DNA from: Limnoglobus roseus
GTDB lineage: Bacteria; Planctomycetota; Planctomycetia; Gemmatales; Gemmataceae
Direction: 5' to 3'
Assembly (NCBI RefSeq): GCF_008254045.1
Contig: NZ_CP042425.1
Span: 2,604,001 to 2,668,000, forward strand
Length of the DNA stretch: 64,000 bases
Shown here: positions 4,357-53,526 of the stretch, piece after piece
Numbering within the stretch: position 1 is the first letter of the stretch
How the letters are laid out: the number at the start of each line of letters is the position of its first letter
Translations under genes and position numbers: made by a program
The notes under the pieces: generated by a model
The model's database searches: none
Seen by the model: the letters and a program-made list of their open reading frames with translations, nothing else
What the model was told of the DNA's origin: nothing

Positions 4357-4366
4357 GCGGGTTTTC

Positions 4367-4492
4367 TCCCTCCCCCTTGAGGGGGGAGGGTTGGGGAGGG
4401 GGTGAAACGCGGCTTCGGCGGGTGGAAGCAACCGCCCTCAGCGGCAGCCTCTTCACCCCCACCCTAACCCTCCCCCCTCAAGGGGGGAGGGA
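4367..4492. repeat. 126-bp inverted-repeat element, copy A of two
   Basis: Roughly 40-bp terminal inverted repeats lie at 4367-4406 and 4452-4492. Each starts TCCCTCCCCC and runs through a short palindrome (CCCCCTTGAGGGGG) into GGGTTGGGGAGGGGGTGAA or a close variant. The 45-bp centre is unrelated to that of the other copy at 42963-43086. It sits between the stop of the dehydrogenase gene and the start of the acetyltransferase gene inside the operon. No coding capacity is evident. It resembles a MITE or REP-type sequence. Confidence 0.8.
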
Positions 4493-4497
4493 ATAAA

Positions 4498-5493
4498 TCA
4501 CACCGTCGTCGCCTCGGTCAGCTGCGTCCAGTCGGCCTGATTCAGCGACCGATACGCGGCGTCGATGGCGGCGACGTTCGCCACGGCGTCATCGACGGTG
4601 ATAACGAGTTTCTCGCCGTCGCGGAGGTGGCGGGCGAAGTTGCCGACGTTGTCGCGGAACGCCTGCACCTTGTCGTAGCCCTTGCCGAAGACGACCCACT
4701 CCTTGTTCGTCAGCTTGTACTTCGACTCTTTCCAGCCGACGCGAATGGTGCCGAGCAGGCCGTGAACGTCGATATAGCTCTCGCGCTCCTTGTTGATGCT
4801 CCACGACAGGTCAATGGTGCCCATCACGCCGGCCGCCGACCGCACGAACACCTGGGCCGTGTCCTCGACCGGCAGCGGTTGGAACCGCCGGCCCTCGACG
4901 GCGTGAACGTCGCTCAGGGTGCCGAGGAAAAACCGTGTCAGGTCGAGCGAGTGGGCACCGTTGTCGATGAGCACGCCGCCGCCGGAAATCGCGGGGTCGC
5001 CGTTCCAGCGGTGCGTCATGTCCACGCGGGACGTGAAGGCGTTTTCGAAGAGAACGACTTCGCCGATCAGCCCGTCGTCGATGAACGCGCGGGCCTTGTT
5101 CACGTCGCTGACGTAGCGGAACTTCGAGGCCATCGTCAGCACGCGGTCGGCCTTCCGGGCGGCGGCGGCCATGCGAAACGCGCTCTCGGCCCCGACGGTG
5201 AAGGGCTTCTCGCACAGGACGTGCTGGCCGCGTTCGAGCAACTTCACCACCAGTTTCTCGTGCGTCACCGGCGGCGTGGCAATGATGGTAGCGTCGAACT
5301 CGGCCATGCCGCAGGCGGTGTCGAGCGTCGCGAACGCCTGGCAGCCCGGCACCGTGGCCGCGACCTTCTGCGCCGCCTCCGGCCGCACGTCGATCACGGC
5401 GACGAGTTCCGCGTCCGGGTGGTCGCGGAACGCCTGGGCGTAGCTCTGGGCAATGCCGCCGGCCCCGATCAAGGCGAAACGAGTCTTCTTCAT
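4498..5493 (-). CDS. Gfo/Idh/MocA family dehydrogenase, WbpB/WlbA-like nucleotide-sugar oxidase
   Basis: The product has 331 residues. The N-terminal Rossmann motif is ALIGAGGIAQSYAQ, followed by VAVIDVRPE (NAD-binding acidic residue) and the family signature HVLCEKPF, whose EKP lysine is catalytic in Gfo/Idh/MocA enzymes. The C-terminal domain has GGGVLIDNGAHSLDL, with the conserved GxHxxD-like pattern. ATG 5493 is preferred over an in-frame TTG four codons upstream because a GGA stretch precedes it. In Wbp/Wlb pathways such an enzyme oxidises C3 of a UDP-amino sugar to a ketone for a DegT aminotransferase; both that partner and an acetyltransferase lie next door here. The exact sugar is inferred, not shown. 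Confidence 0.85.
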   Translation of the reverse strand: MKKTRFALIGAGGIAQSYAQAFRDHPDAELVAVIDVRPEAAQKVAATVPGCQAFATLDTACGMAEFDATIIATPPVTHEKLVVKLLERGQHVLCEKPFTVGAESAFRMAAAARKADRVLTMASKFRYVSDVNKARAFIDDGLIGEVVLFENAFTSRVDMTHRWNGDPAISGGGVLIDNGAHSLDLTRFFLGTLSDVHAVEGRRFQPLPVEDTAQVFVRSAAGVMGTIDLSWSINKERESYIDVHGLLGTIRVGWKESKYKLTNKEWVVFGKGYDKVQAFRDNVGNFARHLRDGEKLVITVDDAVANVAAIDAAYRSLNQADWTQLTEATTV

Positions 5494-5997: not shown

Positions 5998-7221
5998 TCA
6001 CATCTGCGATCGCTCCGCGCATTCGCGGACGGCGGAGGCGATGTAGTCCAGGTGCTCGCCCGTGTACTTCTCCGACCAAGGCAGCACCAGCACGCCTTCG
6101 AGGGCGTCGAACGTGCCGGGGAACTTCTCGGCCGCGTAATCGACGGCCTCCGGGCCGGCCAGCGTGAACGGCCAACGGCTGTTACCGAAGGTCCGCTGTT
6201 CCGAGAAGACCGCACAGCGGAAGGCCGGCTTCTGAATGTACCGCGGAGCACTCGCGATGCCGCGTTCCTTCAGCAAGTTCGCCAACCCCGGCGCGCCACC
6301 GGCGATGCGTCTGCCGTCCACGCGGAGGCAGTACTTCCAGAACGTATGCACCGCCCGCTCGTCCTGCCACGGCGTTTCCAGGCCGTCGATGCCGGTGAGC
6401 TTGGTGCTCAGGTACGCGGCCGAATCCACACGGCTCTGCACCACGCCGGCCAGTTTTTTCATCTGCGCGACGGCCACCGCCCCTTGCAGTTCGCTCATGC
6501 GGCCGTTGAGGGCGATGAAGTAGTGGTCCGGCTTCGGGTCGCCATAACCCCACGCCTTGTTCACGAACAAGTACACCCGGCGGGCGAGTGCGGCGTCGTT
6601 CGAGACGGTGATACCGCCCTCGCCGGTGGTGATGTGCTTGCCCTGCTGGAGGCTGAAACAGCCGAGCGCGCCAAACGTGCCGACGGGTTGGCCGGCCCAC
6701 GTCGCGCCGAAGGCTTGCGAGCAGTCCTCGATCACCGGCAACTTGTGCTTGTTCGCGACGGCCATGATGCCGGTCATGTCGCACGGGTTGCCGAACAGGT
6801 GCGTGACGACGATCGCCTTCGTCTTCGGGCTGATCGCGGCTTCAACGCTCGCGGCCGTGACGTTGCACGTCCGCGGGTCCACATCGGCGAAGACCGGAAT
6901 CGCCCCCTGGTACAGGATCGGCGTGAGAGCGCCCATGTCGGTGATCGACGTGGTGACGATCTCGTCGCCGGGTTCGGGGTCGATCGCGGCAAACGCCGCG
7001 TGCAAGGCCATCGTGCCGGAGTTGGACGCGACCGCGTGCGTGGCCTTCACGCTGGCGGCGAACTCCTTCTCCAGCGTCTTGACGAAGTTCCCCTTCGTGC
7101 TGGTCAAGGTGCCGGTGCGGATCACCTCCGTCAGCAGTTCGATTTCCTCCGCCCCGAGGGTCCGCCCGGTGGCGTCTTGGTCGGAGGGCAGGGGGAGCGG
7201 CGGGCCGAGGCGTTGACTCAT
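5998..7221 (-). CDS. DegT/DnrJ/EryC1 family PLP-dependent sugar aminotransferase
   Basis: The 407-residue protein matches the sugar aminotransferase fold: SNSGTMALHAA for phosphate and PLP contacts, VIEDCSQAFGA (the PLP-stacking and Asp-binding region) and FSLQQGKHITTGEGG, whose lysine forms the internal aldimine. It therefore keeps the catalytic lysine, unlike the related enzyme at 11927. It would transfer an amino group to a keto-sugar nucleotide, most simply the product of the dehydrogenase encoded at 4498. ATG 7221 is chosen; the open frame extends 21 codons upstream, but that stretch has no family-like sequence. A KdnA-like or perosamine-synthase-like specificity is possible. Confidence 0.88.
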   Translation of the reverse strand: MSQRLGPPLPLPSDQDATGRTLGAEEIELLTEVIRTGTLTSTKGNFVKTLEKEFAASVKATHAVASNSGTMALHAAFAAIDPEPGDEIVTTSITDMGALTPILYQGAIPVFADVDPRTCNVTAASVEAAISPKTKAIVVTHLFGNPCDMTGIMAVANKHKLPVIEDCSQAFGATWAGQPVGTFGALGCFSLQQGKHITTGEGGITVSNDAALARRVYLFVNKAWGYGDPKPDHYFIALNGRMSELQGAVAVAQMKKLAGVVQSRVDSAAYLSTKLTGIDGLETPWQDERAVHTFWKYCLRVDGRRIAGGAPGLANLLKERGIASAPRYIQKPAFRCAVFSEQRTFGNSRWPFTLAGPEAVDYAAEKFPGTFDALEGVLVLPWSEKYTGEHLDYIASAVRECAERSQM

Positions 7222-7304
7222 CACGAATCTCAAGCAAGGAGCGGACGCCGGCCGTGCAGGTGAACACGGGAGCGGCTCGACCACGAACGGGAAGGGTTAA
7301 TCTA

Positions 7305-9077
7305 TCACCGGCCGGCCGTCACCGGCTCGGCCGCGGGCTGGCGGTCTTCCATCGCCATGTGGCACGGCGTCCCGGCCGTTTCCCGCAGGAGGAGCAAGGC
7401 GCGGTCGCGGTCGGCGGGTTGGTACTTCCGGGCGCGGCCGCGGAGGCGGTTCCACGCGAACTTTCGCATCAGCCGGAGGTGGCCGACGATCGTGCGGAGG
7501 GTCTTCATCTTGGAGCGACCAAGTAAGCGGACGCTGAGCGTTGTCGGGTGTTCCACGACCCGACTGCCCCGGTGGTCGAGCTGGCCGAGGAGTTCGACCA
7601 CGCCCAGGAAGTTGCCGTAGCGGACGGGGGTTTCCTTGACCCGCGACCGACGGTAAACACGGAAACAACTCGTGTACGTGTGAAGCTGGTTGAAGAACAC
7701 CCGGCGGTATAGCCGGCTCGCCCCTTGCGAGAGGAACAGCCGCCACCGCGGGACGTTCCGCACCTCGCCGTCTGGGTGGTACGGCGAGGCCGTCACCAGA
7801 TCCACGTCGGGCGTCAACTTTGGGATCATCGCCAACAGTTCGTGCGGGTCGTAGGTGCAGTCGGCGTCCATCGAGCAGACGATTTCCGTGTCGGCCGCGT
7901 CGAGGCCGGTCAAGATCGCCGCCGCGACGCCGCGGTTCGACTCGTGGGCGATGAGCGTCACGTCGGGCCACGAGCCGAAGGTTTCCGTGATCTCCGTCTG
8001 CGTGTCGTCGGTGCTGGCGTCGTTGACGAGCAGGAACCGCGGGTCGTAGCCGGCCTGCTGGAACGCCCGGCGGACTTCCGTTAGCGTGTTCGCCAGGAAC
8101 GGGATGACCGGTTCCTCGTTGTACAGCGGGATCACGATGCTGACCGGCGTGCGCTCGACGGTCGGCGAGGACGGACCGAGGTCGATTTCGAGCAGGGTCG
8201 GCGGCGCGGGCGTGTGGACGGCCGGTTTCAGGGTCAGGCCGAGGTGGGCGGCGGCGGTGTCGAAGGAGAACCGCTCCAGGTATTCGGCCACCTTGCCGCG
8301 CATGAGGTCGAGGTTGCGGTAGTGCCGCACGCGGGTCAGCCAGCCGGTCGATTCGAACCGCGGTTGCTCGGGGTCGAGTTCCCAGGTGTGGAAGTACATC
8401 ACCAGGGGCGCGTCGTGCCGGGATTCCCACGACCGCACGGCCCGCCGCATGAGCAAACTCGGGAACTGTCGCAGCCAGTTGCCGCCGATCGGCACGTCCA
8501 TGCCGAGGATGCGGGCGGACGAAATCGGCAACTCGCCGATCGGGCCGGAGAGCGTGACTTCCTCGTGAACCAGCTTCCGCCACGGCTCGGCCGAGAAGTT
8601 CCGCAGGATCGGCCCGAGGCTGGAATCGTAGGCGAACCCTTCTTGCTTCAGCACCTCCAACGCCCACAGGTCGGCCGGACGGAACCATCCCTCGGCCGTG
8701 CGGTAGCCGATAACAGTCTGGCCGCTGGCGTTTTCGATGGCCCGGCGAGACCGGGCGAGGTCGTCCCCGAACTGCTGCGGCGTCAGGTGGCGGATGTCGT
8801 GCCAGTTGTACCCGCGGCTGGCGACCTCGTGCCCGCGGTCGGCGACCTTACGAATCAGGTCCGGCAGCGACTCTGCCACGCGGCCGAGGACGAAGAACGT
8901 GGCCTTCGCCTGGTACTGGTCCAGCAGGTCGAGCGTGCGGTCCGTTTGTTCGATGATCCGCGATTCGTACCGCTGCCAGTGCTCGGGCCGGACGAACCGC
9001 TGAAACGCCCCAACTTGGAAGTAATCCTCCAGGTTGATCGTGAGAATGTGCTTGCGTTTGGTAGGCTGGGTAACCAT
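7305..9077 (-). CDS. Polysaccharide deacetylase-like domain fused to GT2 glycosyltransferase
   Basis: This 590-residue protein joins two domains. Residues 1 to about 285 resemble the polysaccharide deacetylase subfamily found at exosortase/PEP-CTERM loci (INLEDYFQVGAF at the start, TFFVLGRVAE, then HEVASRGYNWHDIRHLTP). Residues from about 310 form a GT2 glycosyltransferase (VSIVIPLYNEEPVIPFL, LVNDASTDDT, CSMDADCTYDP with the DxD-like metal site). Compared with the usual deacetylase pattern (DxEDYF and SHGYxH), the first Asp is Asn and the metal-site His is Arg, so that half may have lost or changed activity. No signal peptide; a cytoplasmic role in glycan assembly is likely. It ends 84 bases before the aminotransferase gene. 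Confidence 0.85.
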   Translation of the reverse strand: MVTQPTKRKHILTINLEDYFQVGAFQRFVRPEHWQRYESRIIEQTDRTLDLLDQYQAKATFFVLGRVAESLPDLIRKVADRGHEVASRGYNWHDIRHLTPQQFGDDLARSRRAIENASGQTVIGYRTAEGWFRPADLWALEVLKQEGFAYDSSLGPILRNFSAEPWRKLVHEEVTLSGPIGELPISSARILGMDVPIGGNWLRQFPSLLMRRAVRSWESRHDAPLVMYFHTWELDPEQPRFESTGWLTRVRHYRNLDLMRGKVAEYLERFSFDTAAAHLGLTLKPAVHTPAPPTLLEIDLGPSSPTVERTPVSIVIPLYNEEPVIPFLANTLTEVRRAFQQAGYDPRFLLVNDASTDDTQTEITETFGSWPDVTLIAHESNRGVAAAILTGLDAADTEIVCSMDADCTYDPHELLAMIPKLTPDVDLVTASPYHPDGEVRNVPRWRLFLSQGASRLYRRVFFNQLHTYTSCFRVYRRSRVKETPVRYGNFLGVVELLGQLDHRGSRVVEHPTTLSVRLLGRSKMKTLRTIVGHLRLMRKFAWNRLRGRARKYQPADRDRALLLLRETAGTPCHMAMEDRQPAAEPVTAGR

Positions 9078-9221
9078 CGGGAACCAGTGGGCGTCCGCGG
9101 AGGGATTCAGCTAGGGCCACATCTTTCCAGCATGGCGTTCATTGTACTCCGGGCGGTGGCAGAAAACCTTAGTCCGCATTTAACGATTGAGCAACTTTTC
9201 ATGAGGTAGTTGCAGGACCGA

Positions 9222-9273
9222 CAAAAACAAACTCGCGGCGCGAACAAGGGACGCCCTTATTCGTGCCGCGAGT
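9222..9273 (-). terminator. Strong rho-independent terminator of the VWA lipoprotein gene
   Basis: Two 20-base arms at 9231-9250 and 9254-9273 pair with a three-base loop. Read on the minus strand the stem is followed by TTTGTTTTTG (9222-9230). It lies 17 bases past the stop of the gene ending at 9290, so that gene is a transcription unit separate from the glycan genes downstream. Confidence 0.8.
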
Positions 9274-9289
9274 GGGCAATCTGGGCGAT

Positions 9290-10867
9290 TTATTCTTTCT
9301 CGCTCAAACCTTGCAGCTTCTTCGCCTGTCGCACCAGTTGAAGGAACTCGGTGCGATGGCCGGCCGCATCCGGGCCACGCGAGGCTTCCGCATCCTTTAG
9401 GACGGCGGCGTAATTGGCCGTGCCCTTGAAGGCGGAGTCGCGGAGCAGCAGTCCGAACTGCGCGACGGCTGCCGCGAAGCGGAAGTCCCCGCCGGGTTGC
9501 CTCTCGATCGCGTCGGCCGGCAGTGGCTTCCGCAGTTCCAGGCTCTTTTCCGATTCCGGGTGCTTGTACCGCATCCGCACGGTGAGCCATTCCCCGGCCC
9601 TCGCGACCGACTGCGAAGGGGCCGCGTACTTCGACGGCTCGGTCGTCGGCACGTCCACCGGCACGCCGACCGGCACGATTTCGTACAGGGCCGTCACGGT
9701 ATGGCCGCTGCCCATGTCGCCCGCGTCCTTCTTGTCGTTCTTGAAGTCCTCGTTGTTCAGCAGGCGGTTCTCGTAGCCGATCAGCCGGTAGGCCGAGACG
9801 AGGTTCGGGTTGAAATCGACCTGGAACTTCACGTCCTTCGCCACGGTCATCAGCGTGCCGGCCTGCTCGACGAAGACCTTGTGCGCCTCGGCTTCGCTGT
9901 CGATGTAGGCGTAGAAGCCGTTGCCGTGGTTCGCGAGCAGTTCCAGGGTCGTGTTCTTGAGGTTGCCCATGCCGAAGCCGAGAACGGTGAGGAAGACGTG
10001 GCTGGTCCGCTGCTGTTCGATCAGCCGTTGGAGTTCCCCCTCGCTGGTCGTGCCGACGTTGAAGTCGCCGTCGGTGCAGAGGATGACGCGGTTGACGCCC
10101 CCCTCGATGAAGTTCAGGCGGGCTTGATCGTAGGCCATGCGGATGCCGCCCCCGCCGTTGGTGGACCCGTTCGCGTCGAGCGCGTCCACGACTTGCCGGA
10201 TGCGGCCCTTCAACCGGCCCGGCGTCGGCGGCAGTTTCAACGCGGCATCGCCGGCGTAGGTGACGATGCTCACGAAGTCGCTCGGCCGGAGTTGGTCGAT
10301 CAGCATCCGCAGCGAGGTCTTCACCAACGGCAACCGGGTCTGATCGGCCATCGAGCCGGACGTGTCGATGAGGAAGACGAGGTTCCGCGGCGGCACCTCG
10401 GCGGCCGAAACCTCGCGGGCCTTCACGCCGATTCGCACGAGGTTGTGCTTCGCTTGCCACGGGCACGGGGCAATGTCGAGTGTCAGCGACACTGGGTCGT
10501 CGCCGTCCGGTTGCGGGTAGGAGTAGGGAAAGTAGTTGACGAGTTCCGCGAGCAGGACCGCATCCTTCGGTGGCAACTTCCCTTCATTCAGGAACCGCCG
10601 GACGTTGCTGTAGCTCGCCGTGTTCACGTCGGCCGAGAACGTCGAGAGCGGCTCCTGCCTGGCCGACCGGAAGGCATTCTCGGTGACGTGCGAATAGTTC
10701 TCTTGTTGCAGGTGGTCGAAGTGTTGCTGGTTCAATTGCCCGTCGATTCCGCCTATTTTGGCGGCGATCGCCGGTGATGAACTCTGTTGACTGGAACAGC
10801 CGACAATCAGAAAGGCGCAGACGGCACCGGCGGCCGCGCACGCGGCCCGCGTGTGAGAAAACGGCAT
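9290..10867 (-). CDS. VWA-domain lipoprotein, YfbK-like
   Basis: The 525-residue protein begins with a lipoprotein signal (hydrophobic run then LIVGC, lipidated Cys24). It then has the N-terminal domain typical of YfbK-like proteins (STFSADVNTASYSNVRRFL, residues 75-93), a von Willebrand A domain with the MIDAS motif DTSGSM (168-173) and TDGDFN, and the C-terminal DUF3520-type region ending near KKLQGLSEKE. VWA domains bind ligands through a metal; this protein is expected to be anchored on the periplasmic side. It interrupts the glycan cluster and has its own strong terminator. ATG 10867 is chosen because the longer frame would bury the signal peptide. Confidence 0.85.
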   Translation of the reverse strand: MPFSHTRAACAAAGAVCAFLIVGCSSQQSSSPAIAAKIGGIDGQLNQQHFDHLQQENYSHVTENAFRSARQEPLSTFSADVNTASYSNVRRFLNEGKLPPKDAVLLAELVNYFPYSYPQPDGDDPVSLTLDIAPCPWQAKHNLVRIGVKAREVSAAEVPPRNLVFLIDTSGSMADQTRLPLVKTSLRMLIDQLRPSDFVSIVTYAGDAALKLPPTPGRLKGRIRQVVDALDANGSTNGGGGIRMAYDQARLNFIEGGVNRVILCTDGDFNVGTTSEGELQRLIEQQRTSHVFLTVLGFGMGNLKNTTLELLANHGNGFYAYIDSEAEAHKVFVEQAGTLMTVAKDVKFQVDFNPNLVSAYRLIGYENRLLNNEDFKNDKKDAGDMGSGHTVTALYEIVPVGVPVDVPTTEPSKYAAPSQSVARAGEWLTVRMRYKHPESEKSLELRKPLPADAIERQPGGDFRFAAAVAQFGLLLRDSAFKGTANYAAVLKDAEASRGPDAAGHRTEFLQLVRQAKKLQGLSEKE

Positions 10868-10941
10868 GACCCGTCCTCCGAAGAGATGGTTGAGGGAACG
10901 GACCGACCGGACGCGCGACCGACGGACTGGCACCAGAACGA

Positions 10942-10976
10942 GACGCGGCCGCGGGAATTATTCCCGCGGCCGCGTC
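10942..10976. repeat. 17-bp perfect palindrome upstream of the VWA gene
   Basis: Two 17-base arms (10942-10958, 10960-10976) are perfectly complementary around a single base. There is no T-run on either side, so it is not a classical terminator. It sits between the VWA gene start (10867) and the repeat element at 10994, and could be an operator, an mRNA stability structure or a relic of a mobile repeat. Confidence 0.6.
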
Positions 10977-10993
10977 GGAATCGAGCGTTTTGA

Positions 10994-11104
10994 TGTAGCC
11001 GCAGGCTTTAGCCTGCGTGCGACTCCTGCCGGTGACGGTCGGCATGCCGGGGCGAATGCCCTTCGCCGGTGGAAGATTGCCGCAGGCTAAAGCCTGCGAC
11101 TACA
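10994..11104. repeat. 111-bp element with self-palindromic 24-bp terminal repeats
   Basis: The ends 10994-11017 and 11081-11104 are inverted copies of each other over 24 bases with one mismatch (TGTAG[C/T]CGCAGGCTTTAG). Each end is itself nearly palindromic (CGCAGGCT..AGCCTGCG). The element overlaps the 3' end of the GT2 gene at 11008 and supplies its stop codon. It looks like a REP/BIME or MITE-type insertion. Confidence 0.75.
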
Positions 11105-11832
11105 GTCGGAGAACCAACGGCCCGCGGCAGCGGGCGGAACCGCAGGCCGAGCAAGAAACGGAGGAATCGCACCACCTCGCGAACCCCCATCTTCGACTCG
11201 CCGGCTTCGCGCGGGTGGAACGTGATCGGCCGTTCGCCGATGCGGTAGCCCATCTGGTGGGCGGTGTAGTTCGTTTCGAGGATGACCGAGTAGCCCTTCG
11301 ACCGCAGCCGCGTCAGGTCGATCGACTCCAACACGTCGCGGCGGAACAGTCGCAGGCCGTTGGTGGCGTCCGCGATCGGCAGCCGCGTGACCCACCGCGT
11401 CAGCCGGTTGGCGACGCGGCTGTTCGCGTGGCGGTGCAGGTTCCAGCCCTGGATTTCGCTCGTCGGCAGGTACCGCGAGCCGATCATCACGTCGGCTTCA
11501 CCCGCCTCAATGACCTTCAACAGTTCGGGGAAGACGGCCGGGTCGTGCGACCCGTCGGCGTCCATCTGGCCGATGAAATCGACATCCTGCCGCAACGCTT
11601 CCGCGAAGCCGGCCCGCACGGAGGTGCCGAAGCCCTTGTCGGCGGTGCGGAGGACGAGTTGCACCCGCGGTTCGCGTCGGGCGAATTCTTCCACCACCTT
11701 CGCCGTGCCGTCGGGCGAGTTGTCATCGACGACGATCGCCCGGTACTCCGGCCCGACCGCGAGGATGCGTTCGAGCAGGCGGCCGATGTTCGCGGCTTCG
11801 TTGAACGTGGGGATGACGATGGCGACGGACAT
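11008..11832 (-). CDS. GT2 family glycosyltransferase (DPM1-like), C-terminus supplied by a repeat
   Basis: The 274-residue protein starts SVAIVIPTFNEAANIGRLLERIL and contains IVVDDNSPDGT and FIGQMDADGSHDP (metal-binding DAD), typical of polyprenol-phosphate mannosyl/glucosyltransferases (DPM1-like GT2). It lacks the C-terminal transmembrane pair of some relatives. The last ~31 residues (from VVAGFSLR) are encoded by the 111-bp palindromic element at 10994-11104, so the native tail has been replaced or lost. It probably charges a lipid carrier used by the GT-C and GT87 enzymes of the cluster. The next gene upstream is separated by a 32-bp perfect palindrome. Confidence 0.85.
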   Translation of the reverse strand: MSVAIVIPTFNEAANIGRLLERILAVGPEYRAIVVDDNSPDGTAKVVEEFARREPRVQLVLRTADKGFGTSVRAGFAEALRQDVDFIGQMDADGSHDPAVFPELLKVIEAGEADVMIGSRYLPTSEIQGWNLHRHANSRVANRLTRWVTRLPIADATNGLRLFRRDVLESIDLTRLRSKGYSVILETNYTAHQMGYRIGERPITFHPREAGESKMGVREVVRFLRFLLGLRFRPLPRAVGSPTVVAGFSLRQSSTGEGHSPRHADRHRQESHAG

Positions 11833-11848
11833 GGGGCGAACTCCGAAA

Positions 11849-11922
11849 GGCGAGCGGCCCGGCGTAAGCGGGCCGTGTCTGTCACTGCCGAGACACGGCC
11901 CGCTTACGCCGGGCCGCTCGCC
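11849..11922. repeat. Large perfect hairpin, 32-bp arms
   Basis: Arms at 11849-11880 and 11891-11922 are perfectly complementary with a 10-base loop. The stem is very GC-rich and is not followed by a T-run on either strand. It fills the space between the ColD-like gene (stop at 11927) and the GT2 gene (start at 11832). It may be an attenuating hairpin, a recombination relic or one copy of a repeat family; a related short sequence (GAGCGGCGTAAGCCGCCGGG) occurs near 40612. Confidence 0.8.
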
Positions 11923-11926
11923 GTCC

Positions 11927-13228
11927 TCACGCCACGACTTTGCTCCACACGGCGGCCCGCTGCGGGGCGACCGCCGGCTTGCGGCCGAAGAACTCGTACA
12001 GTTTGTCCGCGACGTAGTCGATGGCGTCGTTCGTGATCGACTGGTGGCAGCCGATGTAGAAGCCGCTGTTGTTCAGCCACCGGGCGACCGGGTAGTGCGG
12101 TTCCAGGTCGCCGAACATCTTCTTGTAGATCGGCTGGTTAATCAGCGGCAACAGGTCGCGGGTCTCGATGCCGTGCGACTCCAGGTGGTTGACGAGGTCG
12201 CGCTTCGAGCCGTCGCGGACGACCAGCGGGAAGAGCATGAACACGTGGTCGCGGTCGGCCGGGATCGTCGGCAGTTGCAGCACGTCGTTGAGGCCGGCGA
12301 ACCGCTCCCGGTACCGCTTCGCGATGCCGGTGCGGCGGGCGATGATGTCGTCCTTGCGTTCGAGTTGCGCCAGGCCGATGGCGGCTTCCATCTCGGTGCA
12401 GCGGAAGCTGTGGCCGAGGTGGACGAACCGGAACCGCCGGGCGGCGATCTCGAACAGTTGCTTCTTGTTCACGCCGTCGTCGTCGTCGATGGACAGATAA
12501 ATCGAATCGCGGCCGTGGTTCATCAGGCTCTTGAGCATGATGGCCAGGTCGGGGTCGTTGGTCGTCGCGAGGCCGCCGACGCCGGTGACGATGTAGTGGG
12601 CGATGTACGTCGAGAAGCACCCCACGTCGCCCCACGATCCGACCTTCCGCCCGGCACAGTTGGCGAACATCGTCTCGCACGAGTCTTCCACGATCTTCAG
12701 CCCGCGGCGCTTCGCGATCTCGGCGATCGCGACCATGTCGGCCGGCAGGCCGAGCAGGTGGACGGGCAAAATTGCCTTCGTTCGCGGCGTGATCTTCGCC
12801 TCGATCTTGGCCGGGTCCATGTTGTACGTCAGCGGGTCCACGTCCACGAACACCGGCGTCAGGTTGTTGTGGATGACGACGTTGCTCGTCGCCACGAACG
12901 TCACCGCCGGCACCAGCACCTCGTCGCCGTCCTGCCAGCCGTGCATCTCCTTCAGCGCGGCCAGCGCGATGTGCAGCGCGCTCGTGCCGCTGTTGCAGAA
13001 GATGGCGAATTTGCAGTCGTGCATCTCCGCGAACATCTCCTCGAACCTCTTCGTGAACGGGCCGTAGGAGAGGCGGTTGCTGTCGATCACCTGGCCGAGG
13101 TATTCCTTTTCTTTCGCGCCCATTTGCAGGTCGCCGACCGTCACCTTCAGCGGTGCGGCAGCTGCCGGTGTGTGCGGGGCGTCGGTGCGGACGCGGAACG
13201 GGCCGAGCACCTGCGAGTTATTCGACAT
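11927..13228 (-). CDS. ColD/RfbH-like PLP-dependent sugar 3-dehydratase
   Basis: The 433-residue protein has the DegT fold (FCNSGTSALHIAL, KIVEDSCETMF), but the segment normally bearing the PLP lysine reads FSTYIAHYIVTGVGG, with His in place of Lys. This His substitution is the known hallmark of GDP-4-keto-6-deoxymannose 3-dehydratase (ColD) and CDP-4-keto-6-deoxyglucose 3-dehydratase (RfbH/E1), which remove the C3 hydroxyl on the way to 3,6-dideoxy sugars. RfbH-type enzymes also bind an iron-sulfur cluster; I did not identify a cluster motif, so a ColD-like mechanism is favoured. The gene overlaps the GT87 gene by 11 bases, so they are co-transcribed. The nucleotide on the sugar cannot be told. 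Confidence 0.8.
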   Translation of the reverse strand: MSNNSQVLGPFRVRTDAPHTPAAAAPLKVTVGDLQMGAKEKEYLGQVIDSNRLSYGPFTKRFEEMFAEMHDCKFAIFCNSGTSALHIALAALKEMHGWQDGDEVLVPAVTFVATSNVVIHNNLTPVFVDVDPLTYNMDPAKIEAKITPRTKAILPVHLLGLPADMVAIAEIAKRRGLKIVEDSCETMFANCAGRKVGSWGDVGCFSTYIAHYIVTGVGGLATTNDPDLAIMLKSLMNHGRDSIYLSIDDDDGVNKKQLFEIAARRFRFVHLGHSFRCTEMEAAIGLAQLERKDDIIARRTGIAKRYRERFAGLNDVLQLPTIPADRDHVFMLFPLVVRDGSKRDLVNHLESHGIETRDLLPLINQPIYKKMFGDLEPHYPVARWLNNSGFYIGCHQSITNDAIDYVADKLYEFFGRKPAVAPQRAAVWSKVVA

Positions 13229-44568: not shown

Positions 44569-44706
44569 TGGCGCGATTTCGCGTGCGCGCAGGGATGCGC
44601 CAGATGGCGCGATTGCGGCGCAGGTGCCCACGGAACCTGCCGCGCCAGTTGCGCCCGCCGGCGCAAGTTCAAGACCGACACACTCCGGCTCGGGCGCGGT
44701 TGGCGC
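44569..44706. repeat. TGGCGC/GCGCCA cluster upstream of the dnaA-type gene
   Basis: TGGCGC or its complement occurs at 44569, 44597 (complement), 44605, 44642 (complement) and 44701, with many overlapping GCGC steps between. The pair at 44597-44610 is a near palindrome (GCGCCAGATGGCGC). The 271-bp gap 44504-44774 holds no clear DnaA box (TTATNCACA) and no convincing gene. Confidence 0.45.
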
Positions 44707-44774
44707 ACCGGGCGGCGCGCGCATCATTACAGCTACCGACATTGACGCCGCGTTCCCCCCGACCGAGTGTGCCA

Positions 44775-46235
44775 GTGAATTTGGGTCGCGCCAAGACGCC
44801 GATCACGGACGACCCATTGCCGCGGGTGGAAGCCGCCTTCGTCGGCCGCATCGGTGCGGCCCGGTACCAGCTTTGGTTCGCGTCGAACGCCAAGTTCGTC
44901 TGGCTCGAACACGAGTTCGTCGTCGTCGCCCGCACCGCGCACTTCCAGGACTGGGCCGCGGATAAGTTCGGCCCCGCCCTCCGCGACGCGGTGGCGGAAG
45001 CCTGCGGCCAAGTGCCGGTGCGGTTCGTCACCGATGCCGATCTGTTCGCGGAACCGTCTGCCGAACCGAAACCCATCGCAGAACCCGTGAAGCCGACAGG
45101 GCCGAAGCCGCAATTGAACCTCTTCGGCGAACCGCCCGCCCCGCCGACGCCGAAGGAAGTGCTCAAGCGGCAGAAGGACGAACTCCAAGCGGCGGCGAAG
45201 CACGCCCGGAAGTGGAAGACGTTCGCCGAGTTCGCGGTCGGTCCGTCGAACCGCGTGGCCCACGCCGCCGCGGTGGCCGTTGCTGAGGAGCCCGGCCTCG
45301 GGCCGAACCCCCTCGTGTTGCACGGCCCCGTCGGCACCGGCAAGACGCACCTGTTGGAAGGCATCCACTCCGCGATGCGGAAGCGTGGGCCGGAAGGTCG
45401 TGCCCTGTTCGTGACGGCCGAGGAATTCACGAACCGTTTCGTGCAGTCGAACCGCTTCAACAAGATGGGCACGTTCCGCAAGCAGTTCCGCGAGTGCTCG
45501 GCCCTCTTGCTCGACGACCTGAACTTCCTCGAAAACAAGAAGGCGACGCAGGAAGAGTTCCTTCACACGCTCGACGCCCTCGTGAGCGACGGCCGGCAGG
45601 TTGTGGTGACAACCGACTGTCACCCGCGGCTGGCCGACAAGCTCATCCCGGAACTCGTGGACCGTTTGCTCGGCGGCGCAGCGTGGAGCCTACTGCCGCC
45701 GGACGACGAGACGCGGCTGGACATCCTCCGTCGTAAGGCGGCCAACTCGCCTATCGGCGAGGACGTGCTGAAGTTCCTGGCCCGCAACCTCAAGGGGAAC
45801 GTGCGGGAACTCGAAGGCGCGATCAACAGCGTCCGGCACTTCGCGAAGGTGACCGGGCAGCCCGTGACGGTGAGCCTGGCCCGCGAAGCTCTCGGCGACC
45901 TGTTGCGGCATGTCGTGCGGGCGATCACCGTGGCCGACGTGGACGCGGCCGTTTGCCGGGTGCTGCGGCTGTCGGTCGGGCAGTTGCAATCGAAGTCTCG
46001 CTCGTGGCAGGTCAGCCACCCGCGGATGATCGCTGTCTACCTCGCCCGCAAGCACACGGCTGCCACCTACGGCGAAATCGCCAAGCACTTCGGCGTGAAG
46101 CAGCACAGCACGGCCGTGGCCGGCGAGAAGAAAGTCCGCAGCTGGCTTACGAGCAACGAGCAACTCAACCTCGGCGACCGCCGCTGGACGGCGAAAGACC
46201 TGATCGACCGCGTCGAGCGAGAGTTGCAGAAGTGA
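44775..46235 (+). CDS. dnaA: Chromosomal replication initiator DnaA-type protein
   Basis: From GTG 44775 the protein has 486 residues: domain I-like residues 14-90 (ARYQLWFASNAKFVWLE), a Pro-rich linker (91-125), the AAA+ domain with Walker A GPVGTGKT (184-191), Walker B LLLDDLNF (244-251), sensor 2-type GNVRELEGAINS (341-352), and a domain IV with VSHPRMIAVYLARKHT and the DNA-recognition helix KQHSTAVAGEKK (442-453). In E. coli this helix is RDHTTVLHACRK; here Asp is Gln and the first Thr is Ser, so box recognition may differ. No dnaN, recF or gyrB is adjacent. The start is uncertain; GTG 44769 is equally possible, and the upstream extension is Arg-rich and unconvincing. Confidence 0.85.
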   Translation: MNLGRAKTPITDDPLPRVEAAFVGRIGAARYQLWFASNAKFVWLEHEFVVVARTAHFQDWAADKFGPALRDAVAEACGQVPVRFVTDADLFAEPSAEPKPIAEPVKPTGPKPQLNLFGEPPAPPTPKEVLKRQKDELQAAAKHARKWKTFAEFAVGPSNRVAHAAAVAVAEEPGLGPNPLVLHGPVGTGKTHLLEGIHSAMRKRGPEGRALFVTAEEFTNRFVQSNRFNKMGTFRKQFRECSALLLDDLNFLENKKATQEEFLHTLDALVSDGRQVVVTTDCHPRLADKLIPELVDRLLGGAAWSLLPPDDETRLDILRRKAANSPIGEDVLKFLARNLKGNVRELEGAINSVRHFAKVTGQPVTVSLAREALGDLLRHVVRAITVADVDAAVCRVLRLSVGQLQSKSRSWQVSHPRMIAVYLARKHTAATYGEIAKHFGVKQHSTAVAGEKKVRSWLTSNEQLNLGDRRWTAKDLIDRVERELQK

Positions 46236-48834: not shown

Positions 48835-48970
48835 GGTGCCCGCTTTCCGAGAGTTCGTCACTTCGAGCAATCGGTTCTAACGGGGCCGCAACTTCACCAA
48901 ATCCCGCCCCCGCCGGTTCCGACCGCGACATTTCCCGAAATTTCTGTCACATTACCGGGGCGGCGGACAA

Positions 48971-48985
48971 GTCGGAGTGTCCGAC
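48971..48985. promoter_or_regulatory. Possible operator before the sigma/NurA/HerA operon
   Basis: GTCGGAGTGTCCGAC is a palindrome (six-base arms, three-base centre) 22 bases upstream of the sigma gene, followed by GGAGG at 48991. A similar GACTGTCCGACAGTC occurs at 40817. It may be a regulator site for the operon, but that is unproven. Confidence 0.35.
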
Positions 48986-49007: not shown

Positions 49008-49577
49008 ATGACGACGACAGCCTTACCACCCACGCTCGTCCCGCCGCCGGACGATCCCGTTCGGGCGGCACTTCAAGAACCGACCACGCTCGAAGACTTG
49101 CGCCGCCAAGCCGGGGCGATGGCGAAGAATCGCAAGGTGTCCCGCCTGGAGATCGACGACCTCGTGAGCGAGACCGTCGAGCGGGCCTTGCGAACCGCCG
49201 CGAAGTACGACCCGACGAAGGGCAGCGTCGGCGGTTGGCTGTACGGCGTGCTCGTGAACATCGTTCGGGAACAGTCCCGGCAGGCTGGGCGGCAGGGCGT
49301 TCAGCAACCGGCCGACCCGAAACTTTGGGAACAGGCCGCCCACGCGAAGCCGGCCGCCGATCCGGACCTAGCCGAGAACCGCTTCCTGGTCGAGCGATAC
49401 CTGAGCAAGCTCGGCCAACCGGAACAGGCCGTCGTGAAAATGCGATACCTTGAAGAGCGCGAGTACGCCGACATCGCGGATCGAATGCGGCTGTCGCAAG
49501 TTTACGCCCGCGTGCTCGTCAGCCGGGGGATTAACACGATGAAGGCCTTCGCCGTCGGGAAGGGGGATCGGCCATGA
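49008..49577 (+). CDS. ECF-type RNA polymerase sigma factor
   Basis: The 189-residue protein has sigma region 2 (RLEIDDLVSETVERALRTAAKYD ... GGWLYGVLVNIVREQSR) and region 4 (LGQPEQAVVKMRYLEEREYADIADRMRLSQVYARVLVSRGI) with a recognisable helix-turn-helix. It lacks region 3, as in ECF sigmas. Its stop overlaps the next gene as ATGA. GGAGG lies 12 bases before the start. The conserved pairing with the following 181-aa protein suggests that protein is its regulator. Confidence 0.85.
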   Translation: MTTTALPPTLVPPPDDPVRAALQEPTTLEDLRRQAGAMAKNRKVSRLEIDDLVSETVERALRTAAKYDPTKGSVGGWLYGVLVNIVREQSRQAGRQGVQQPADPKLWEQAAHAKPAADPDLAENRFLVERYLSKLGQPEQAVVKMRYLEEREYADIADRMRLSQVYARVLVSRGINTMKAFAVGKGDRP

Positions 49578-50119
49578 CCGACCACGACCGCCGCGACTGG
49601 ATCGACGCCCTGTCCGCCCGCTACCTGGACGCCCTGGACCGGGACGACTTCGACGCGCAAGAAGAACTCTGGGCACTCGCCGCCCAACACGCCGACCTGG
49701 AAACCGCCTTCCGCGAACTGCACGAGGGATTGCTGGAAGAAGAAGCCGCGAAGGCGACGGCCGCCGTGACCGATGCGGTCGAATCGCACCTGAAGTCGGC
49801 GACGATCGTCCGCGAACCGACCGGCCCGGTGACGTTCGCGGACGTGGCCGACGAATTGTTCCGCCACACGCCCGGCGGCCTGCCGCCGGAGGCCCACGCC
49901 CTCAACGCGAAGTTGCGAGAGGCGAAGGAACCGCTGCCGGCCGACCTGGGGTTATCCGGCCTGATCGCGTTCGCGGAAGCCAAATTCGGGGCAGCGTCCC
50001 GCGACTACTGGCGAGCCTTCCGCGAGGCGGCGCTCACCGTACGGATGCGCGCGAACTCTCAGTCGGCCGAGTACCAACTCGCGGCCCGCCGTGCGCCCAA
50101 GCCGGAGGACCGCCCGTGA
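49574..50119 (+). CDS. Sigma-factor partner protein of unknown type, 181 aa
   Basis: The protein begins MTDHDRRDWIDALSARYLDALDRDDFDAQEELWALA and is soluble, acidic and helical. This opening is common in planctomycete proteins encoded directly after ECF sigma genes, which suggests an anti-sigma-like or sigma-associated role. The C-terminal half (DVADELFRHTPGGLPPEAHAL) is unassigned. No zinc-anti-sigma HxxxCxxC motif and no membrane helix are present. It overlaps both neighbours (ATGA, GTGA). It is a candidate substrate of the metalloprotease encoded next. Confidence 0.7.
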   Translation: MTDHDRRDWIDALSARYLDALDRDDFDAQEELWALAAQHADLETAFRELHEGLLEEEAAKATAAVTDAVESHLKSATIVREPTGPVTFADVADELFRHTPGGLPPEAHALNAKLREAKEPLPADLGLSGLIAFAEAKFGAASRDYWRAFREAALTVRMRANSQSAEYQLAARRAPKPEDRP

Positions 50120-50706
50120 TCCCGGAAGAGATCGCCCACCTCCGCAGCCGGTGCAAACTGCCGTTCGATCCGTCCCGTCGCGGGCCGGTGCTGCTGAGCC
50201 AGTTCTTTGAAGAACTGAACCTCTCGCACGTCGCGCTGCCGAACTTGTCGTGCGGGGCGGTGACGGACTTCCTACGGTCGAAGGGCATGGCCATCGACCC
50301 AGTCGGCGAACCCGATTCACCGCTCGCTGGCTGCCTGTTCTGGGTGAAGGACGACGGGTGGGCGTTCGTCACCGCCAGCGACATCCTACCGCGCCGCCGC
50401 TTCTCGGCGGCCCACGAACTCGGCCATGCCGTTCTGCACCGCGAGACGATGGGCGGGTTCATTTCCGACGTGTCGATCAGCGAGACGGACGCCGCCGAGG
50501 GCCAACGCGAGCGGGAAGCGAACCAGTTCGCCGCCGAGTTGCTGATGCCGAAGGAAGTCTGCTGGGCGCGGGCGGAAGAGTTGGAACGCGACTACAAGGC
50601 GTGCCCGCGGATGGTGCTGGCCTACCGACTGGCGAGCGAGTTGCTCGTCAGCCGCGAGGCGATGCGGTACCGACTGAAGTCTCTGGGGATCGGCAATGAC
50701 GACTGA
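50116..50706 (+). CDS. ImmA/IrrE family metalloprotease
   Basis: The 196-residue protein starts at GTG 50116. It has the zinc motif HELGH (100-104, AAHELGHAVLHRE) and the third-ligand region EREANQFAAELLMP (133-145), as in ImmA (which cuts the ICEBs1 repressor) and Deinococcus IrrE/PprI (which cuts DdrO after DNA damage). There is no fused HTH domain. ImmA/IrrE proteins usually cleave an XRE-type repressor; none is adjacent, so the 181-aa protein is the nearest candidate. It overlaps the NurA-like gene by 11 bases. Confidence 0.88.
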   Translation: MIPEEIAHLRSRCKLPFDPSRRGPVLLSQFFEELNLSHVALPNLSCGAVTDFLRSKGMAIDPVGEPDSPLAGCLFWVKDDGWAFVTASDILPRRRFSAAHELGHAVLHRETMGGFISDVSISETDAAEGQREREANQFAAELLMPKEVCWARAEELERDYKACPRMVLAYRLASELLVSREAMRYRLKSLGIGNDD

Positions 50707-51787
50707 CCGCGACGCCGTCCGGGCGTTCTTCCGCAAGCACGCAGCCACGGCCGTCGGCCCGACGCCAGTGCAGCCGAACGTGACCCCCGGCGACGACGGC
50801 GACGAGCCGGACGCGATCGAGCGCGGGTTCGAGATGCCGGAAGCCGATTGGAAAGCGGTCGTCGTGTCGGAAGCCCCGGCCCGCGATGGCGAGTTCCCGG
50901 TGCGGTTCATCGACGGCTCGCAAGCTGGGCAGCCGGTCGTGTGCGTGCGCACGGCCGAGGGCTGGCCGATCCCGCTACTCATCAGCGAAGTCGGGGCCGT
51001 GGCCCTGAAGAGCGTGGGCCGGCGCTTCGAGCGGGAGTTCGTCGCCGTCGAGCGGGTGCTGTCGTTCGTCGCCGACCCGTTCCCGTGGGAGGAGGTCGAA
51101 GCGTTCGCCGCGGCCCTGGTCAACATCCCCGAGTTAAAACTGCGAGTCCTGCCCGCCAACCGGCCGCAAGAGCAACACAGCCCGTTCGACTACGAGATCA
51201 TGCGAACCCAGGCCCGCGCGCGGGCGCAACAGGAGATGACTACCCTCGAACGCCTCGCGCTCGCCGTGAATCGCAAGGTGCCGACGCTGGTGGACGGGCC
51301 GTTGCACCGGCTGATGGGATCGCCCGACCCGTTCGGGCCGCTGTTGATCGGCGTCGTGAAGACGCAGGCGGCTGATTACCTGCACCCAAAAGGGTGGCAG
51401 ACGCTCCTGGACTTAAAGCCTGGCCAGCGGACGCCGGTGTTTCAGTATGAGGGCCGGCAAACGGCTGGCGGGTCGGTGCCCGTGGCGTCGTGGTATCTGA
51501 AACTCGCAGGCGGGCCGCAGCTTGCCCCCAACTGGGGCTACGTCCGTGTCGAGGTGCCGTGGGGCCAGTTCCAACACCAGTTTCGCGGCGACTTCGGGTT
51601 CGTCAATCGCCTGTCGCGGTGGCTGATCGACGCCCGCTGCCGGACCGACAGCTACGCGCGAATGCCGGTGTCGCTCGACCCGATCGTGCGGGCCGAGGAC
51701 GCGCTGAAGCCACTGTTCACGCCGCTGCAAGTGCTGGTGAACCGCCTCTACCGCCAGGCCGGGTTCTTTCGGAGGAACGAACTGTGA
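50696..51787 (+). CDS. NurA-like 5'-3' nuclease domain protein
   Basis: The 363-residue protein has the two acidic motifs of the NurA family: FIDGSQ (D73) and LVDGPLHRL (D200), separated by a helical region, followed by LLIGVVKTQAADYL, the GxxK-type motif. NurA is a 5'-3' exonuclease/endonuclease that works with the HerA hexameric ATPase in end resection. The gene overlaps the protease gene and its stop overlaps the HerA-like gene (GTGA), so the pair is strictly coupled. Overall length and N-terminal extension are larger than archaeal NurA. The identification depends on the motif pair and the HerA neighbour. Confidence 0.72.
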   Translation: MTTDRDAVRAFFRKHAATAVGPTPVQPNVTPGDDGDEPDAIERGFEMPEADWKAVVVSEAPARDGEFPVRFIDGSQAGQPVVCVRTAEGWPIPLLISEVGAVALKSVGRRFEREFVAVERVLSFVADPFPWEEVEAFAAALVNIPELKLRVLPANRPQEQHSPFDYEIMRTQARARAQQEMTTLERLALAVNRKVPTLVDGPLHRLMGSPDPFGPLLIGVVKTQAADYLHPKGWQTLLDLKPGQRTPVFQYEGRQTAGGSVPVASWYLKLAGGPQLAPNWGYVRVEVPWGQFQHQFRGDFGFVNRLSRWLIDARCRTDSYARMPVSLDPIVRAEDALKPLFTPLQVLVNRLYRQAGFFRRNEL

Positions 51788-53526
51788 GTCGGACCGCCCT
51801 CGGCCGCGTGGCCGCCCCGCCGGAACACGAATCGACCAGCGGCGTCTTCTACTTCTGGGTCGACCGCGACCAGAGCGTCGAGCGGACGCAGATCGTCACC
51901 ACCAAGTCCACTGTCGCCGGCCGAGAGGTCGCGTTCGTCGGCATCGTGCAGGAAGTCTACCGCCGCAGTCGGCAGAAGGACGTTGGCGAGGAGGCGGCCC
52001 GGTTCGACGGTCGCAGTGCCGAGACGCCGCCGTTCGCGTCGGAGGGCGTCACTTACGCGGAGGTCGCGATCCTTCGCACCGACCCGGTCGCGCACACGCC
52101 GCCGACGGAGGAGAGCGAAGTCTTCCTCGGCGACGAAGTCGCGGCCGCGAAGGGCTACGGCATGGACCGCATGGGCCAGCGGTTCGACGTGGGTCTCTTG
52201 CGCAACGGCGGCACCGAGTTCGCCGGGCGGGCGGCTATCGACTTGGACTTTCTTCTGGGAAAGAACGGGGGTCACCTCAACGTCAACGGCATCGCCGGCC
52301 TCGGCACGAAATCGACGCTGCTGCTGAGCATGAACTGGTTGCTACTCCGCGAGGCGAAGCGGCAACGGGAGGAGAAGCAGGGCGACCCGAAGCGGTTGCA
52401 GGTGGTGCCGGTGATCTTCAACGTGAAGAACTTCGACCTGTTCTTCATCGACCGCTGGAACACCGAGTACCGCAAGGAGGAACTCGCCCACCGCGAGGAC
52501 TGGCGGCGGATGGGCGTGGACGAACCACGGCCGTTCGACATGCCGCGGTACTTCGCCCCGCAGGCGAAGGGGCTGTCCACACCCGTGCAAACCGGCGGCC
52601 GCACGACCGACGTGCTGCCGTACAGTTGGTCGCTGGCCGACGTGATCGAGCAAGAGTTGTTCTCGTTTCTGTTCAGCGAGGAGGACGTGTACGACCCGAA
52701 CTTCGGCGGCCTCGTCGGTGAGATGGAAGAGTACCTGACGAGCGAAACCGCGGCCGGCCGGAAGTTGCGCAAGGATGGCCCGCAGACGTTCGCGGACCTG
52801 CTCGACTGGTTTCGCGACGAGCGGGATTCGCTGTTCATGGACTTCGTCAAGGCGACGAAGGGTAAACTCCTCCGCCGGCTGAAGTACATCGTGCAAGAGG
52901 GTGACGGCGTCCTCGTCCGCAAGGAGCCGAAGGGGAACGCGCTGAAGATTCCGTCGGTCGGGCAGGACTCGCCCATCGTCATCGACCTGTACGGCCTGCA
53001 CGGTACGCCGAGCCTTCAGCGGTTCGTGGTGGCGGCCGTCTTCCACCAGATTCAGCAGATCCAGTCCGCGAAGCAGGTGGCGAACCTCAAGTACCTCATC
53101 ACGCTCGACGAGTTGAACCGCTTCGCCCCGAAGGACAGTTCGGACCCCATCACGCAGAAGCTGGAGACGATCGCGTCGGAGGGTCGCAGTCAGGGGATCA
53201 TCCTGTTCGGGGCGCAGCAGCAGGCGAGCCTGGTGAAACCGCGGGTGATCGAGAACGCCGCCATCCGGGCCATCGGCCGCAGCGGCACGCTGGAGTTGGG
53301 GGCGGAAGTGTGGAAGTTCCTCGGCCCTTCGGCCCGCAGCGCCGCGTCGCAGTTGCAGCCGGAGGAGAAGCTGCTGTACCAGCCCAGCTTCCGCGAGCCG
53401 ATGCTGGCGAAGATTCCGTTCCCGCCGTTCGCCCTCAGCGAGAACGACGCGGACAGCCCACCGGCGACCGGCGGCGGCGATCAGGGATTGCCGCCGGTAT
53501 CGAGCGCAGACCTGGACGCATTTTAA
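51784..53526 (+). CDS. HerA-like ATPase (FtsK/HerA superfamily)
   Basis: The 580-residue protein starts at GTG 51784. Residues 1-60 resemble the HAS-barrel of HerA (GRVAAPPEHESTSGVFYFW, VAFVGIVQEVYR). The P-loop reads NVNGIAGLGTKSTLLL, with a Thr between the Gly and Lys of the usual GxxxxGK[ST]. Walker B is LITLDELNRFAP, and the C-terminal part (EGRSQGIILFGAQQQASLV, then RAIGRSGTLELGAEVW) is as in HerA-FtsK ATPases with a sensor Gln. It would form a hexamer that pumps DNA for the NurA-like nuclease. It is the last gene of the operon. Confidence 0.82.
   Translation: MSRTALGRVAAPPEHESTSGVFYFWVDRDQSVERTQIVTTKSTVAGREVAFVGIVQEVYRRSRQKDVGEEAARFDGRSAETPPFASEGVTYAEVAILRTDPVAHTPPTEESEVFLGDEVAAAKGYGMDRMGQRFDVGLLRNGGTEFAGRAAIDLDFLLGKNGGHLNVNGIAGLGTKSTLLLSMNWLLLREAKRQREEKQGDPKRLQVVPVIFNVKNFDLFFIDRWNTEYRKEELAHREDWRRMGVDEPRPFDMPRYFAPQAKGLSTPVQTGGRTTDVLPYSWSLADVIEQELFSFLFSEEDVYDPNFGGLVGEMEEYLTSETAAGRKLRKDGPQTFADLLDWFRDERDSLFMDFVKATKGKLLRRLKYIVQEGDGVLVRKEPKGNALKIPSVGQDSPIVIDLYGLHGTPSLQRFVVAAVFHQIQQIQSAKQVANLKYLITLDELNRFAPKDSSDPITQKLETIASEGRSQGIILFGAQQQASLVKPRVIENAAIRAIGRSGTLELGAEVWKFLGPSARSAASQLQPEEKLLYQPSFREPMLAKIPFPPFALSENDADSPPATGGGDQGLPPVSSADLDAF

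Follow-up and report, generated by a model that had tools for sequence, protein, structure and literature searches.

A candidate protease-gated sigma factor switch for a mobile Mre11-Rad50-HerA-NurA gene set in Limnoglobus roseus and other bacteria

The window analyzed here is a stretch of 64 000 bases from Limnoglobus roseus (Gemmataceae), bases 2,604,001-2,668,000 of its 9.38-Mb single-contig genome. On its forward strand lie five open reading frames (ORFs) encoding an extracytoplasmic function (ECF) sigma factor, a 181-aa partner protein, an ImmA/IrrE protease, a NurA nuclease and a HerA ATPase (Table 1), with junctions that overlap by 4, 4, 11 and 4 bases (ATGA, GTGA, 11 bases and GTGA). 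We treat them as part of a putative regulatory switch joined to a DNA-end-processing machine. An initial annotation, made by a model from the sequence and its list of ORFs, had described the five genes as one coupled unit; its coordinates and junctions were reproduced exactly, and all of its gene identities were upheld by Pfam, PADLOC, PDB profile and fold matches. The unit itself stood as to genes, order and overlaps, but proved too short, because the operon of relatives has two further genes, sbcD and sbcC, giving a seven-gene system.

Table 1. Coordinates of the operon genes and the candidate promoter in the window
Feature	Position	Strand	Details
Candidate sigma-dependent promoter, TTTCTGTCACA-N14-GACAAG	48941-48971	+	-35 TGTCACA, 48945-48951; -10-like CAAG, 48968-48971
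ECF-type sigma factor	49008-49577	+	189 aa; regions 2 and 4 only; Pfam Sigma70_r2 4.4e-10, Sigma70_r4 1.3e-7; TIGR02937 4.6e-18
Partner, putative soluble anti-sigma factor	49574-50119	+	181 aa; ATGA overlap with sigma gene
ImmA/IrrE (M78) zinc metalloprotease	50116-50706	+	196 aa; GTG start; HELGH; Pfam M78 1.2e-17; PADLOC capP 2.9e-21
NurA nuclease	50696-51787	+	363 aa; profile match to 7f6d NurA; AlphaFold2 model and Foldseek
HerA DNA-translocase ATPase	51784-53526	+	580 aa; GTG start; Walker A GIAGLGTKST; Walker B LDELNRFAP

The operon, its relatives and its split

Pfam regions 2 and 4 are present in the sigma factor and region 3 is not, which is the ECF layout. The NurA-like protein had no match in Pfam. 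A profile built from 29 NurA-like sequences matched the Deinococcus radiodurans protein DrNurA (7f6d) at 1e-10 and TM1739 at 2e-4, and an AlphaFold2 model (predicted TM-score, pTM, 0.85) submitted to Foldseek found DrNurA (3e-15), TM1739 (5e-12) and SsoNurA (1e-5) as the only significant folds; the top four matches were DrNurA, two chains of TM1739 and SsoNurA, that is, the NurA RNase H-like fold. The NurA fold, on which the initial annotation had staked its reading beforehand, is thus upheld at the level of structure prediction. Residues D73 and K222 are invariant in alignment A7 and align with D53 and K201 of DrNurA, both of which are required for nuclease activity (PMC9960219; PDB chain numbers are those of this paper plus 20). 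HerA matched D. radiodurans HerA (7f6d) at 6.9e-45 and with a profile at 2.6e-69, in an alignment that covers K175/T176 and D487/E488; its Walker A K176 and Walker B D442/E443 are invariant in alignment A3 and are aligned with DrHerA.

Operon-type HerA was found in 20 of 95 Gemmataceae genomes; among 398 genomes sampled from the class, none outside this family had it. The search of planctomycetes for the five-gene order, proposed with the original description, gave 12 loci among the 15 from Gemmataceae whose upstream DNA could be read, all 12 with overlapping or closely spaced junctions; in the exceptions (L027, L037 and L038) only ImmA, NurA and HerA are present. A scan of 84,980 species, which samples one HerA clade because its patterns were made from Gemmataceae HerA, recovered this gene order from Cyanobacteria (L103, L105, L106, L107, L111 and L117), Chloroflexota (L114, L115 and L116), Armatimonadota (L119) and Acidobacteriota (L122), and the front three genes were there in 11 of 11 assessable non-planctomycete genomes. 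The operon is also carried by two plasmids (Chlorohelix and Aulosira). That nurA and herA might occur mostly without the first three genes, a possibility raised at the outset, does not hold within the operon's own HerA clade, given these counts, and does hold for the wider HerA family. The gene set appears to be horizontally mobile, recurring in five bacterial phyla.

Relatives show similar overlaps, of 4, 8 or 11 bases, at loci with unrelated flanks, and because the order recurs at such loci and in four other phyla it is more than chance. A chance run of unrelated neighbours, which has nothing in its favour but the dense packing of genes in this region, is contradicted by at least 23 loci, spread over five phyla and differing in their flanks, that have an identical order, and we consider it extremely improbable. 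Two of the recovered loci call for comment. In L043 an insertion of about 1.7 kb (10929-12640) in the middle of the HerA gene splits it, and a transposase lies beside the operon. A metagenome-assembled genome titled Bacteroidales (L097, JAIXLE010000194.1) has a Gemmataceae-type locus in the same place as the Gemmataceae genome G036; the title is probably wrong.

The annotated plasmids have sbcD and then an SMC/SbcC gene directly after HerA, and SbcD/SbcC follow directly 3′ of HerA in 17 Gemmataceae loci and in all 11 assessable outside genomes. No such pair follows HerA in the window, L037 or L038. The L. roseus genome has an sbcD-sbcC pair of the operon type at 220,680-224,521 (L204:9681-13522), 2.4 Mb from the five-gene part, whose products are 72% (SbcD) and 51% (SbcC) identical to the operon copies of L026, and we therefore regard its seven-gene set as split. 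A second SbcCD pair in the same genome (about 5.83 Mb) has an SbcD only about 40% identical to the operon type. Genes for HerA, NurA, Mre11 and Rad50 are thus linked as four together in relatives, while here they are split but have one promoter motif common to both parts.

That motif, TTTCTGTCACA-N14-GACAAG, was found by comparing the sequence upstream of the sigma gene with that upstream of the split sbcD; the two regions otherwise align poorly. In one pattern search of the whole genome the exact motif occurred at only two places, upstream of the sigma operon and of the sbcDC operon, and the reversed pattern, used as a control on the same genome, gave no match; this uniqueness was not built into the motif definition. 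A third promoter-like site (3,823,752), with two mismatches, has no convincing gene behind it and was treated as chance. Among 13 upstream regions (those of 12 Gemmataceae operons and the sbcD of L. roseus itself), GTMACR-N16-CAAR is present in seven, against 0.002 expected per region, and a looser form in nine, against about 0.004, although these figures are not independent tests because the motif was defined on part of that set. Across these regions the motif is nearly always 56-68 bases 5′ of the start codon, and relatives have it as far upstream of sigma as the window does. From its recurrence and genome-wide uniqueness we predict that the sigma factor is autoregulated through the upstream promoter, and the proposal that it drives the nuclease machine gains support from a candidate promoter common to both halves.

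Other carriers do not share the genes that flank the operon here. Upstream synteny with the same-genus genomes G052 and G053 ends right after a permease gene (48,617), and the comparison with these genomes found neither a common downstream flank nor a precise empty site, so no exact insertion boundary is given. In a selective survey of flanks, carriers adjoined defence genes of several kinds: type I-E cas (L026), cas4-cas1 (L030), ResIII and GmrSD (L033), and HsdR (L116); TIR, STK kinase and HEPN genes lie near the operon on the Chlorohelix plasmid (L198). On a Streptomyces plasmid (L201) a Wadjet-like cluster adjoins a divergent ImmA gene and a distantly related HerA-SbcD-SMC set. Elsewhere in the window, an ORF with DnaA-like AAA+ and C-terminal sequence (44583-46235) is followed by an ABC transporter ATPase gene.

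The protease and the partner protein

The protease has both the HEXXH zinc motif and a downstream Glu (EREANQFA), and capP is its best PADLOC model. Every locus with the sigma factor, the partner and a complete protease gene has an intact HEXXH. The catalytic Glu of this motif is lost only in L037 (HALGH, 9161-9826) and L038 (HTLGH, 6978-7643), two loci of one genus in which sigma, partner and sbcDC are all missing. Its loss alongside that of sigma and partner supports a functional link between the protease and the pair, as supporting evidence rather than proof because the two loci are one lineage and L027, also without the pair, keeps HELGH. In L106 (Brasilonema) the ImmA gene (3957-4729) is in two frames, probably through a frameshift. 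The M78 proteases PprI and CapP are activated by single-stranded DNA (PMC10904395).

The partner has an N-terminal helical domain (about residues 8-71) and a C-terminal helical domain (about 87-170), and its AlphaFold2 model is all-helical and two-domained (predicted local distance difference test, pLDDT, 85). The model had no fold match in the PDB, Pfam gave no anti-sigma match, and alignment A6 has no conserved His or Cys; by these measures the protein is not of a known anti-sigma class (zinc or class I/II). No helix-turn-helix (HTH) was found in it by Pfam or by PDB fold, and the operon has no HTH repressor. A similarity to EAD2 was judged too weak to use.

The N-terminal domain was then searched alone (alignment A8) in 301 Chloroflexota genomes and was found in 17 places. 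In 12 of these it is the cytosolic head of a protein with at least one transmembrane segment, encoded directly behind an ECF sigma gene; of the other five, two are complete partners accompanied by sigma and ImmA, two are remnants fused to a C5 DNA methyltransferase, and one match is spurious. A cytosolic domain followed by a transmembrane segment and an extracytoplasmic part, encoded behind an ECF sigma gene, is the layout of a membrane anti-sigma factor. Soluble anti-sigma factors are regarded as descendants of membrane ones (PMC8103513). Because its N-terminal domain heads transmembrane proteins in this position, the partner is by domain architecture most likely a soluble anti-sigma factor, and what had begun as a guess, that it restrains the sigma factor, gains independent support from an N-terminal domain of anti-sigma type.

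Variants of the front genes were also seen. Truncated partner genes run in frame into DNA methyltransferases, HsdM in L123 (2487-5228) and the C5 type in L164 (706-1722) and L165; these are apparently remnants overwritten by restriction-modification genes. In genera g25 and g35 (L124-L126, L127, L129 and L130) sigma, partner and ImmA stand beside a degenerate NurA-like protein whose FIDG and VDG motifs are lost (as read in L130), with a Nudix hydrolase after it.

Proposed mechanism and alternatives

Taken together, the reading that we think likely is a protease-gated sigma switch for a mobile seven-gene Mre11-Rad50-HerA-NurA set that acts chiefly on invading DNA. The order of the system would be ECF sigma factor, soluble anti-sigma factor, ImmA/IrrE protease, NurA, HerA, SbcD (Mre11) and SbcC (Rad50), with the window holding the larger half and the last two genes placed 2.4 Mb off under the same putative promoter. 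At rest the partner would hold the sigma factor, as its domain architecture suggests. ImmA would be activated by a signal linked to DNA, for which single-stranded DNA, the activator of PprI/IrrE and CapP, is a plausible candidate, and would then cut the partner. Once freed, the sigma factor would guide polymerase to TGTCACA-N16-CAAG promoters upstream of both its own operon and sbcDC, a step that the uniqueness of the promoter supports, and the outcome would be a positive-feedback burst of the Mre11-Rad50-HerA-NurA machine. Such a machine captures, pumps and degrades DNA ends. HerA-NurA is known to process DNA ends with Mre11-Rad50 (PMC2288612, PMC9960219).

Several observations weigh against this reading. 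A wider cyanobacterial HerA clade (E about 1e-81; 38 of 390 genomes have a match at E<=1e-20 besides the query locus) has no switch in the ten loci examined, and a switch in all HerA-NurA pairs was thereby ruled out. Sigma and partner are missing from three Gemmataceae loci that retain ImmA-NurA-HerA, and in one of these, L027, the HEXXH motif is intact. ImmA of the window has no obvious GAF sensor domain. The partner fold resembles nothing solved, and the partner N-terminal domain also heads four NarL-type response regulators (L144, L146, L147 and L148) in two cyanobacterial genomes, so that it may be a broader interaction module. No HerA was found in the g25/g35 loci; because these keep sigma, partner and ImmA with a degenerate NurA, the regulators can serve something else, and a domestication of the switch is possible there. 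The flanks of the window have no obvious defence genes, the HerA profile found no relative in viral contigs, and PADLOC has no system model for the gene set (only the protease matches; HerA scored 0.015, NurA and the partner none).

Two other readings concern the switch itself. The partner could be an anti-sigma factor that ImmA does not cut, the protease being merely co-expressed and acting on some other protein, phage-encoded or HerA-NurA; ImmA is indeed kept without sigma and partner in L027, and HEXXH-less in L037 and L038, always adjoining NurA-HerA. Against this, sigma, partner and ImmA remain neighbours in all five phyla, even in the g25/g35 loci where no HerA was found, and the catalytic Glu is lost exactly where sigma and partner are lost; we consider this reading unlikely. 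Slightly less probable again is a partner that is no anti-sigma factor but an adaptor or co-activator coupling the sigma factor to the nuclease machine through an EAD-like interaction domain. The weak EAD2 match (Pfam 0.025) and the fusions to NarL-type response regulators in cyanobacteria would fit an adaptor, while the membrane anti-sigma layout of N-domain proteins behind ECF sigma genes at 12 Chloroflexota loci argues otherwise.

As to what the predicted switch turns on, the set probably serves inducible DNA repair or defence against viruses. Its accessory distribution, on plasmids and among defence genes, suggests that its target is chiefly invading DNA, with DNA repair as a close alternative, and a phage phenotype is predicted. 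With the same switch, the output could be inducible repair of chromosomal double-strand breaks by end resection for homologous recombination, which we hold to be quite possible though doubtful: in archaea, Mre11-Rad50-HerA-NurA sets, encoded by linked genes, carry out end resection (PMC2288612), and IrrE/PprI switches control DNA repair genes (PMC10904395). Repair fits less well with the patchy presence in Gemmataceae, the second SbcCD in the same genome, the plasmid copies, the cas and restriction-modification neighbours, and the finding that deletion of nurA and herA in D. radiodurans improves mitomycin C tolerance (PMC9960219). The accessory distribution, the defence neighbours and this Deinococcus result lead us to put defence slightly ahead. 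Somewhat short of an even chance, and so offered tentatively, is the further proposal that the system is inducible bacterial immunity of a new class, with a cytosolic M78 protease that releases an ECF sigma factor from a soluble anti-sigma factor and a sigma factor that builds an archaeal-type Mre11-Rad50-HerA-NurA machine for degrading DNA; if it is true, both the three-gene regulatory head and the partner domain were previously unrecognised.

Comparison with known systems

Every enzyme family here is already known, as are M78 protease switches and HerA-NurA-Mre11-Rad50 clusters. The initial annotation knew of no described system with such a layout, and the open-access literature (open-licence PMC papers) likewise yielded no description of HerA-NurA with a sigma factor, ImmA or SbcCD, nor of the whole combination in which the protease would target a sigma/anti-sigma pair. 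If the proposed switch is true, it would be the first ImmA/IrrE protease known in that literature to act via a sigma/anti-sigma pair and not a repressor, and a positive-feedback counterpart of CapH-CapP and PprI-DdrO. The system also offers a role for bacterial NurA-HerA, whose function has been called controversial (PMC9960219). Because both parts of the split operon have a common promoter motif that is unique in the genome, the regulon can be tested directly, and further proteolytic sigma switches can be sought through the partner domain.

CapH-CapP, which is associated with CBASS, and PprI/IrrE-DdrO also combine an M78 metalloprotease with a co-encoded regulator as presumed substrate, and have DNA-damage or defence effectors adjacent. 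Their substrate is an HTH repressor, whereas here an ECF sigma factor and a partner of soluble anti-sigma type would give activation, not derepression. The archaeal nurA-herA-mre11-rad50 cluster likewise places these four effector families in a single operon (PMC2288612); unlike it, the present set is bacterial, accessory and plasmid-borne, has a sigma/anti-sigma/protease head and, in the window genome, would form two units under one promoter. D. radiodurans NurA and HerA are the closest solved structures for both proteins, with catalytic and Walker residues conserved here, but in the window lineage the pair is tied to the regulatory head and sbcDC.

The candidate promoter has the -35 TGTCACA and 16-bp spacer of ECF41 promoters (TGTCACA-n16-CGTC, PMC3426412); it differs in a candidate -10 of CAAG/CAAA instead of CGTC, and the sigma factor lacks the fused SnoaL-type C-terminal domain of ECF41. 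ECF switches of the RseA-DegS-RseP type, where regulated proteolysis of a membrane anti-sigma factor frees the sigma factor, likewise have sigma regions 2 and 4 only, an overlapping anti-sigma gene and an autoregulated promoter. The proteases that one review names for cytosolic anti-sigma factors are Clp and Lon, not M78 (PMC7593790); unlike the RseA-DegS-RseP type, the anti-sigma factor predicted here is cytosolic and would have an M78 protease dedicated to it.

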